A stretch of 64,000 bases of DNA from Natronobacterium texcoconense. Lineage in GTDB: Archaea > Halobacteriota > Halobacteria > Halobacteriales > Natrialbaceae. The stretch covers positions 1,364,001 through 1,428,000 of the forward strand of contig NZ_FNLC01000001.1 in NCBI RefSeq assembly GCF_900104065.1. The letters are read 5' to 3'. Positions 46,176 to 50,904 of the stretch are shown in pieces. The notes beneath the pieces are model-generated. The model ran no database searches. It was given only the letters and a program-made list of their open reading frames with translations, and was not told where the DNA came from. Each line of letters begins with the position of its first letter. Positions within the stretch are counted from its first letter, which is position 1. The position numbers were made by a program, and so were the translations under genes.

Positions 46176-46249
46176 GCCAGGGGAGCATGGGCGGTTCATG
46201 CACTCGACTTGTAATCGAGACTTCCGGGGTTCAAATCCCCGCCCTGGCT
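46176..46249 (+). tRNA. tRNA-Thr (anticodon TGT)
   Basis: A cloverleaf can be drawn. The acceptor stem is GCCAGGG with CCCTGGC (46176-46182 and 46242-46248). The D stem GCAT/ATGC is at 46185-46188/46198-46201. The anticodon stem CTCGA/TCGAG is at 46203-46207/46215-46219 with loop CTTGTAA (anticodon TGT at 46210-46212). The T arm CGGGG/CCCCG has loop TTCAAAT, and the discriminator is T. CCA is not encoded. Oddities: position 8 is G and the D loop (GGGCGGTTC) lacks the usual A14 and A21, so it is either a divergent tRNA or a decayed copy. Downstream repeats reuse its 3' end. Confidence 0.7.
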
Positions 46250-46280
46250 TTCTGTCGCGAACAAATTCGTGAGCGACGAC

Positions 46281-46346
46281 GCCAGATGGGATTTGAATCA
46301 GAGAGCAGCTTTGCTGCGACCGTGGTTCATAATCCTCGCCCTGGCT
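46281..46346. repeat. Palindromic core of repeat unit 1
   Basis: GCCAGATGGGATTTGAA at 46281-46297 is an inverted version of the tRNA 3' end (its reverse complement TTCAAATCCCATCTGGC resembles TTCAAATCCCCGCCCTGGC). At the other end TTCATAATCC...CCTGGC is a direct copy. Between them GCAGC-TTT-GCTGC (46305-46317) makes a perfect small hairpin. The whole 66-base block can fold back on itself. Confidence 0.75.
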
Positions 46347-46378
46347 TGCTGTAACGAACGAATTCCGTGAGCGACGGT

Positions 46379-46444
46379 GCTAGCTGGGATTTGAATCAGA
46401 GAGCAGCTTTGCTGCGACCGTGGTTCATAATCCCCGCCCTGGCT
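46379..46444. repeat. Palindromic core of repeat unit 2
   Basis: Same arrangement as unit 1: GCTAGCTGGGATTTGAATCA, the GCAGC-TTT-GCTGC hairpin at 46403-46415, then TTCATAATCCCCGCCCTGGCT. The outer left arm has drifted (GCTAGCT for GCCAGAT), while the right arm is closer to the tRNA than in unit 1. Confidence 0.75.
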
Positions 46445-46445
46445 T

Positions 46446-46569
46446 GCTGTAACGAACGAATTCCGTGAGCGACGGAGCTAGCTGGATTCGAATCAGCAAG
46501 CGGCTTCGCTACGAACGTAGTTCGGCTCCCGTACTTTTGACGTCGGTCCTCACCGCCGAACGGCCTGCG
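46446..46569. repeat. Decayed third repeat copy, then intergenic sequence
   Basis: From 46446 a partial unit reads GCTGTAACGAACGAATTCCG and continues GCTAGCTGGATTCGAATCAG and CGGCTTCGCTACGAACG. It has lost the right-hand tRNA copy. After about 46520 it gives way to ordinary sequence before the stress-protein stop. No gene is seen here. Confidence 0.6.
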
Positions 46570-49554: not shown

Positions 49555-49732
49555 TGGAGATAGTAAACAGGCGTCCCCGGAATAAATATTTCGGCCATCG
49601 GCAGCTCTAGAAATGCACGCGTGGCCAGACCAGCGGACGCCATCGAAAGTTTCTCCGGATCGTTCCAGCGAGGACGGCAGTGTCCGCCGGACTGACCGTC
49701 CGGCTTTTCATACCGGACCCCGTAGAGTCGGT

Positions 49733-50530
49733 ATGGCCGATAACGACGACGAGCTCGCTGAAGCCGTCCGCGAGCTCACACGGACTATCGACGAGCTTCG
49801 CCGGGAACTCGAGTCCGAACGTTCGCGGCGGGGGCCACGACTCCGGCCACCGACGCCACGGGAACTGCTTGCTTTTACCGACGACGTCGCGCTCCCCGCT
49901 GTCCTCTCGGTCCTCGAGGCGAGCGTTCGTGCCCTCGAGACCTTCCAGCGCGGGCTCGAACTCGTCAGGACCGAACGCGAGGTCCGCGATCGGACGAACG
50001 AGGCAGCGGCTACAACGAGCGACCGTGCGGACCAGTTCCGGCGGACGACGCTGTCGCGACTCGACACCGTCCTCGAGGAACTCCAGCGTGCGGCCTCGGA
50101 GGGCGCACTCCCCGCCGACGACGAGGCACGAGACCTGCTCTCGGAGGCACGACGGCTCCGCGACGAGGTCGACGACCGCCTTCGAGCCGAGACCGACGAG
50201 GTCGAGACGCCGGACGAACCGACCGGCTGGCAGGGAGACGAGACGGTCAGTATCGACATCGAGGAAGGCACACCGCCGGAACCCGACTCGAGCGACGAGC
50301 CCGACGAACCCGATCCGTCGGTCGACGTCGAGGCCGAACTCGAGACGCTCAAAGATCAGTACGGACCCGAAGAGGAGAGTTCGGACGGTCCTGCAGCCGA
50401 CGAGACCGATGGAAATCCGGATTCGAGTGATACGGATGGTGATCGGGAAGACTCGAGCGAGGAGTCCGGAGCCGACGCGAACGACGAAAACGGGGACTCG
50501 AGCCCCGACGACGGTTCGGACGAGAACTAA
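49733..50530 (+). CDS. Coiled-coil protein with a long acidic tail
   Basis: A 265-aa haloarchaeal protein. Residues 1-30 are coiled coil (ELAEAVRELTRTIDELRREL), 40-160 are a helical domain (LLAFTDDVALPAVLSVLEASVRALETF and later helices), and the last 100 residues are very acidic and disordered (DSSDEPDEPDPS...DGSDEN). No catalytic motif. It probably is a structural or DNA/partner-binding protein. The tail's stop overlaps that of the OB-fold gene on the other strand by three bases. Confidence 0.75.
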   Translation: MADNDDELAEAVRELTRTIDELRRELESERSRRGPRLRPPTPRELLAFTDDVALPAVLSVLEASVRALETFQRGLELVRTEREVRDRTNEAAATTSDRADQFRRTTLSRLDTVLEELQRAASEGALPADDEARDLLSEARRLRDEVDDRLRAETDEVETPDEPTGWQGDETVSIDIEEGTPPEPDSSDEPDEPDPSVDVEAELETLKDQYGPEEESSDGPAADETDGNPDSSDTDGDREDSSEESGADANDENGDSSPDDGSDEN

Positions 50531-50904
50531 ACTGGTTCGAATCGGTAGCCGTCCCAGGACTGGCTGTCGGGCTCTCGGATGCCCGCACCCGGTTCGCGAA
50601 GCGCTTCCTCGTAGACCGGCTGGACCTCGTCACCCGTTTCGACGTCACCGGTCGTCAACTGGACGATCGCACGGACGAAGTCGTCGCCGTCGTCGAACGC
50701 ATCACTGACGTCGAACTCGACGATCGCGAGGTGGTTCGGTTCGCGGACGCCCGGCGGCGTCGCCGTCGAGGTCGTCCACGTGACGACCTCGGCCGGGTAC
50801 TCCGTCAGATCGATCGTCTCTACCGGTTCCGCACCGCCCGGACCGCGCGGATGCCCGGGGTAGCTGATCGTACCGTTCTCGTATCGGGTCGCTTCCATCG
50901 TCAT
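50527..50904 (-). CDS. OB-fold (DUF35) beta subunit of a haloarchaeal beta-ketothiolase
   Basis: A 125-aa OB-fold protein of the DUF35/ChsH2 family, here without the rubredoxin-like zinc ribbon: the sequence contains no cysteine at all. Recognisable parts are TATPPGVREPNHLAIVEFDV and VRAIVQLTTGDVETGDEVQP. Its ATG overlaps the thiolase stop (ATGA at 50901-50904), so the two are made together. In archaea DUF35 partners link a thiolase with HMG-CoA synthase or form alpha-beta ketothiolases. Confidence 0.85.
   Translation of the reverse strand: MTMEATRYENGTISYPGHPRGPGGAEPVETIDLTEYPAEVVTWTTSTATPPGVREPNHLAIVEFDVSDAFDDGDDFVRAIVQLTTGDVETGDEVQPVYEEALREPGAGIREPDSQSWDGYRFEPV

Follow-up and report, generated by a model that had tools for sequence, protein, structure and literature searches.

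REP and BIME repeats, which are mobilised by RAYT (IS200/IS605-like) transposases, are non-autonomous, multicopy sequences found in tandem groups, with a strand polarity and with hairpins that conserve their mismatches, and integron attC sites are single-strand hairpins that are conserved in structure, variable in sequence and arranged in arrays with direct repeats. The units described here resemble the former in their mismatch-conserving hairpins, strand polarity, non-autonomy, copy number and tandem grouping, and the latter in setting structure-conserved hairpins in direct-repeat arrays. They differ from REPs, whose arms are not known to be copied from the site and which have no known tie to tRNA T-arms, and from attC sites in having arms that match the local tRNA and no cassettes, none being contained in the segments of 34–219 bp (mostly 75–135 bp) that separate successive direct copies of the tRNA end. 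These segments are related hairpins rather than the unrelated spacers of a CRISPR array, and, compared with a MITE, the flanking direct copy is present whereas the inverted arm is the local tRNA T-arm and not a fixed terminal repeat.

Among haloarchaeal repeats, the PATEs and SMR of Haloquadratum are likewise short, gene-less and palindrome-bearing, and PATEs have near-terminal palindromes and no target duplication (PMC3119063, the part available). The units have palindromes too and, unlike PATEs, a direct copy of their site; in the available part of that survey, PATEs and SMR are not tied to tRNAs, have no such copy and do not take their arms from the insertion site. The cores of archaeal integrases are tRNA gene 3′ ends with T-arm dyad symmetry, and the att duplications of those that target tRNAs (SSV, pT26-2, SNJ2 and others) share the tRNA 3′ end as a core, an intact tRNA and a partial copy downstream (PMC8371274, the part available). 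As in such duplications, the insert is bounded by the tRNA 3′ end in direct copy (exact over 20 nt in 71 of 150 units, with filled and empty sites); however, the spacers are too short for an integrase gene, the viral, phage and plasmid collections gave no unit for the core patterns searched, and the units differ further in being about 80–150 bp long and gene-less, in holding an inverted as well as a direct copy, and in their common hairpin tips, tandem arrays and occurrence behind a protein gene. In kind, the units come closest to two groups, the non-autonomous palindromic repeats and the duplicated attachment sites of tRNA genes, without matching either. They are not described in the available parts of the haloarchaeal survey (PMC3119063), where partial tRNA copies are mentioned for prophages only, or of the archaeal tyrosine recombinase review (PMC8371274), and the literature searched, which comprised papers outside subscription, gave no earlier description. 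With modest confidence, we favour the reading that they form an order-wide Halobacteria family of short, gene-less, non-autonomous palindromic insertion units that are aimed at T-arms and spread as hairpin DNA by a putative enzyme.

The array behind tRNA-Thr(TGT)

The window, by which we mean the whole 64,000-nucleotide stretch of Natronobacterium texcoconense DNA that was analysed, holds an intact tRNA-Thr(TGT) gene at 46176..46249 on the forward strand (ARAGORN; Rfam RF00005, 51.9 bits), and the array behind it is neighboured by genes for a GNAT acetyltransferase and a Usp protein. The part of the tRNA that runs from the T-loop to the 3′ end (D0, TTCAAATCCCCGCCCTGGCT, 46230..46249, +) is the template copied in the units, each of which consists, in this order, of a hairpin A, which is perfect in the family's typical unit, an inverted copy I, a second structured hairpin B and a direct copy D. 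In unit 1, hairpin A (46254..46277, +; GTCGC-GAAC-AAATTC-GTGA-GCGAC) has a tandem G.A tip and is followed by I1, an inverted copy of T-stem and T-loop (46287..46297, −; TGGGATTTGAA), by B1 (46298..46325, +), whose type-1 core TCAGAGAGCAGC-TTT-GCTGCGACCGTGG also occurs in relatives, and by D1 (46326..46346, +; score 16/20). Unit 2 repeats this order with hairpin A at 46351..46375 (+; GTAAC-GAAC-GAATTCC-GTGA-GCGAC), I2 at 46385..46395 (−; again TGGGATTTGAA), a B2 identical to B1 at 46396..46423 (+) and D2 at 46424..46444 (+; score 18/20). A third unit is decayed: repeat-family comparison places its hairpin A at 46449..46473 (+), sequence comparison places the remains of its I and B (TGGATTCGAATCAG..GCGGCTTCGCTACGAACGTAGTTC) at 46483..46530 (+), with 88% identity over query positions 1–81, and its D is lost.

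The original prediction of two units of 97 and 98 bases behind the tRNA, each with a direct copy of the tRNA end and followed by a decayed third, is borne out by these features. The D-to-D periods are 97 and 98 bp, positions 46263–46360 and 46361–46458 are 93% identical over 98 bp, and the third unit retains hairpin A and part of I. The GCAGC-TTT-GCTGC hairpin predicted for both units lies at 46305–46317 and 46403–46415; with up to two mismatches it occurs five times in the window, where 0.39 matches are expected, and no shuffle reached five. Two refinements are needed. Both direct copies contain one extra T in the T-loop (TTCATAATCC), and the inverted copy of the tRNA 3′ end is real for T-loop and T-stem, about 11–13 nt, while of the acceptor end it keeps only a degraded trace (GCCAGA, with GCCAG as the trace itself, just before I1, and GCTAGC before I2). 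The RNA fold of the tRNA together with its units has a z-score of −3.9.

Site-matched arms and common hairpin tips

Units were collected from all loci, which gave 150 units behind 33 tRNA species. For type-1 units, no tRNA matches D as well as the local one does in 43 of 57 cases, and the D scores for local tRNAs sum to 576, whereas the maximum over 2000 permutations is 270. The inverted arm follows its site as well, since I agrees with the local T-stem at a mean of 3.62 of 5 bases (2.74 in 2000 shuffles, with a maximum of 3.00), and the A or G at T-loop position 4 agrees between I and the local tRNA in 121 of 124 comparisons. Both D and those bases of I that correspond to the T-arm match the local tRNA, and the hairpin tips are common to tRNAs and species, so that the suggestion of palindromes grown from one tRNA end is right for the arms, which are local, and wrong for the tips, which are common genome-wide. 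An extra T-loop base (TTCAYAAT or similar) is present in 22 of the 150 D copies, as it is in the window.

The hairpins vary in a way that keeps them paired. Positions 2–5 of the A stem are paired in 63–76% of copies, a figure that falls to 29–40% when arms are swapped between copies, and the A tips read GAAC..GTGA in 57 cases, GAGC..GCGA in 37 and a mixture in eight, the two main forms differing by the replacement of an A–T pair with a G–C pair beside an invariant tandem G.A. The inner pair of type-1 B is C–G in 37 cases, G–C in 23 and other in two, and other B types, such as GACCGAGGTTCTGCG..CGCAGGTTCTCGGGCGTGG and AGTCGCAGC..GACCGTCT, have the type-1 outer frame too. Of the tandem G.A tips, 111 belong to the tRNA-sense strand and four to the antisense strand; the complementary strand would give T.C mismatches in its place, and the hairpins therefore have a strand. 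An interpretation of the tandem G.A as a kink-turn was dropped, the 3-nt bulge being absent. In the genome of the window (G000, the window being C1:1364001-1428000), the three units behind tRNA-Ser(CGA) (G000:C1:1194679-1195026) each have a different B hairpin type, and tRNA-Pro(GGG) (G000:C8:53661-54014; L004, L143), on an 88-kb contig, is followed by a hairpin chain whose arms (GGTCCCA/TGGGAC) correspond to the acceptor end instead of the T-arm.

Distribution, empty sites and a site behind a protein gene

When the last 20 nt of each tRNA (T-loop to 3′ end) were compared with its own surroundings, with a score of at least 14/20 within 450 bp counted as a D copy, such a copy was found downstream of 27 of 40 tRNAs tested in the Natronobacterium texcoconense genome and upstream of none (0/40), a contrast that excludes chance. 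The DNA between tRNA and D copy contains two hairpins, with an inverted copy of the T-arm between them. Applied to 30 tRNAs of four further families in the order, this test found a downstream copy for 12 and an upstream copy for none. The pattern TTTGAA-N(25-55)-GTTCAAATC matches the Natronobacterium texcoconense genome 12 times in either orientation, at places that adjoin located tRNAs, and the reversed control has no match. A genome search for the 98-base unit, as the original prediction proposed, thus has a divided answer: the full unit is present at the window locus only, and the core recurs elsewhere in the genome. The A-type tip was also considered as a general haloarchaeal repeat, but GCGARC..GYGAGC is not enriched genome-wide (285 versus 521 in the reversed control), and A is therefore specific by context and not by frequency.

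Beyond this genome, the type-1 core is present in 46 of 61 relatives, and a search of 84,980 species genomes returned 38 stretches, every one of them from Halobacteria by name. A same-strand tRNA stands no more than 330 bp to the 5′ side of 57 of the 65 distinct copies, and more than 13 tRNA species are served (Thr, Arg, Ser, Val, Trp, Gly, Asp, Leu, Met, Pro, Gln, Phe and more). With a plain pattern, I-B-D palindromes were detected in 124 of 146 genomes drawn over the order, with no control match in any, and 51 of the 56 genera sampled were positive. Sampled genomes from outside the order gave 0–3 matches each (control 0–1), and the inner sequences listed for these matches are not palindromes. 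In other families of the order, the four tRNA-Ala(TGC) genes examined (L201, L202, L204, L212) all lack a unit, and their flank resembles the rRNA operon spacer.

This distribution bears on whether the units could arise in place as a mutational by-product, in which template switches during replication of the T-arm palindrome would make the inverted and direct copies and gene conversion via the universal T-loop would pass hairpin cores between arrays, so that nothing would itself be mobile. The invariably local arms agree with that proposal, as do the T-loop TTCAAAT, which is near-universal in tRNAs and flanks every B core, the exchange of B types between homologous units and the coexistence of three B types in one array of the Natronobacterium texcoconense genome, behind tRNA-Ser(CGA). 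However, local slippage alone would not produce the same tips in A and B, whose tandem G.A pairs occupy one strand, across so many genera, and T-arms are universal, yet the sampled genomes outside the order are without such units; we regard a by-product as quite unlikely.

Orthologous tRNA sites differ in whether they are filled. A regular expression was used to score all 80 tRNA-Thr(TGT) orthologs fetched from the family, of which 14 have I-B-D, nine have hairpin A only and 57 have neither. At the nine A-only loci (L111, L120, L122, L127 and others), the A tip lies at most 80 bp from the tRNA and the I-B-D pattern is unmatched; some of them may be diverged full units, and decayed units are seen at tRNA-Thr in G108 and G115. 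Within genus g9, G127 carries a unit where G081 has an empty site, and the flank beyond D continues as in G081. In genus g28, the units of G031 and G075 precede a flank that directly adjoins the tRNA in G003 (g1), G130/G131 (g9) and G025 (g22), and these two genomes of one genus have A and arms in common and different B hairpins. Insertion behind the tRNA is clean and tandem arrays form, and the predicted variability among relatives is found, with sites occupied in one species and empty in another; together with the units elsewhere, this contradicts the alternative of a sequence that is absent elsewhere and invariant. Since the D copies are direct repeats, units may also be lost without a scar, and an empty site may in some cases be the result of such a loss and not the ancestral state. 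In L125, L129, L147, L150 and L191, a flank that is conserved between genera, T(A/G)AATCCTTAGGTTCAAATCCTCTACC, stands directly behind tRNA-Thr(TGT) and itself resembles an old tRNA 3′ end.

Away from tRNAs, there is one clear case of an occupied site, in Natronorubrum texcoconense (L039). There, a three-unit array, 308 bp from first to last D, lies behind a protein gene that ends in the T-arm-like palindrome CGGTTCGAACCGGTC, and its D and I are copies of CGGTTCGAACCGGTC. Its neighbours are orthologous to the window genes 50527–50904 (76% identity) and 49613–50530 (47%), so that the array sits between orthologs of OB-fold and DUF7547 genes which overlap in the window, and the window thus has the empty form of this site, at the end of the OB-fold gene (TTCGAACCAGTTTAG, 50521..50536, −), with a 4-bp overlap with the convergent DUF7547 gene. 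The target of the units is accordingly a T-arm-type DNA sequence, and tRNA transcription or processing is dispensable.

The same array weighs on a reading of the units as structured RNA in tRNA read-through transcripts, where they would act as small RNAs, as terminators or as signals for processing of the trailer, with selection acting on RNA structure. Their polarity, in the sense of the tRNA, speaks for such a role, as do tandem G.A pairs, the conservation of internal loops and compensatory changes, and an RNA-processing site dependent on tRNA-like ends was among the original suggestions. That suggestion is weakened by an array behind a protein gene, by presence that varies between orthologs (at tRNA-Thr, 14 of 80 sites are full) and by an Rfam 15 scan of the window in which tRNA was the sole family above the cut-off. 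Selection on RNA through G–U wobble was rejected as well, isolated stem mismatches showing no bias (G–T 24, A–C 18) in what is, with so few mismatches, a weak test. A role as structured RNA appears improbable to us.

Origin, mode of spread and meaning of the units

If the units travelled as cargo of viruses or plasmids, their cores should be met there (this candidate was rejected): the exact type-1, type-2 and type-4 core patterns have no match among 2.9 million viral contigs (IMG/VR), and the core patterns searched are absent from 50,697 phage records (INPHARED) and 72,556 plasmid records (PLSDB). Loose type-3 and loose I-B-D scans of viruses gave many matches to unrelated viruses, none unit-like among the matches listed, and the tRNA-Met end found unrelated phages only. 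These results also count in judging a scar of repeated tRNA-targeted integration, the first of the original suggestions, under which the units are minimal attP cassettes of tyrosine-recombinase elements (A on one arm, I-B on the other, D as core), left behind or circulating as mini-circles. Insertion behind a tRNA with its 3′ end restored is what site-specific integration is expected to give, and D resembles the cores of archaeal integrases (PMC8371274, the part available). Three displaced arrays touch the question directly. At L064 (~4100, reverse strand), L067 (~6058) and L072 (~7659, reverse strand), arrays with tRNA-Thr(CGT) arms have no tRNA in the fetched upstream DNA and are headed by a partial tRNA-Thr 3′ end, and it seems that foreign DNA lies between tRNA-Thr(CGT) and the array, as after integration of a mobile element. 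However, the attR-like boundary of all three is a bare tRNA end without A, I or B, hence with no I-B in front. Integration alone, moreover, leaves arms fitted to 33 tRNA species with common tips unexplained, and A, I and B were missing from the viral, phage and plasmid records for the core patterns searched. Scars or satellites of integrases are thus a possible but weaker account, unlikely in our judgement and yet a serious competitor; in part it overlaps with the by-product and RNA explanations.

The best fit among the original suggestions is a mobile, hairpin-forming sequence that uses a tRNA end, given the 33 tRNA species served, the filled and empty sites, the clean junction and the array away from tRNAs. 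In the best reading, a unit goes in immediately after a T-arm sequence (TTCRAAT), which in almost every case is a tRNA 3′ end, D restores the site so that the tRNA stays intact, and the A and B tips are the family-specific part, the arms being derived from the host site. Against a mobile unit it counts that the analysis brought to light neither an enzyme nor a parental element nor any transposition event between strains, that some empty sites may be losses, and that clear sites away from tRNAs number just one. Plain transposition from elsewhere also predicts units with the arms of another tRNA, and none were seen; therefore, arm copying or rapid correction must be assumed. The mode of spread that we infer would begin with folding of the tRNA-sense strand as single-stranded DNA, this strand being proposed because the tandem G.A pairs lie on it. 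A putative trans-acting enzyme would recognise the A and B hairpins and join them at a T-arm, and fold-back repair synthesis could then copy host sequence into both arms, which would make D-A-I-B a dumbbell with a stem of host sequence. Recombination between D copies would give rise to tandem arrays and to scarless losses. Most likely, the units are selfish or neutral DNA, which the host would tolerate since its tRNAs continue to function.

Whether they amount to a new class of mobile DNA, one that brings hairpin tips only, copies the host site for its arms and so fits nearly every tRNA gene of the order, and any sequence that resembles a T-arm, with the help of a putative enzyme, we put forward as a tentative proposal. 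If this interpretation is right, most tRNA genes across an archaeal order bear a repeat family that is undescribed in the literature searched, and the family would explain the frequent duplications and hairpins at haloarchaeal tRNA 3′ ends that are otherwise read as prophage scars. The adaptation of a single element to dozens of defined target sequences would also serve as a natural experiment, and the family would point to a putative enzyme that acts on DNA hairpins at T-arm sequences. As recombination-prone repeats beside essential genes, the units would bear on the choice of tRNA sites by integrative elements and on the rearrangement of tRNA loci.
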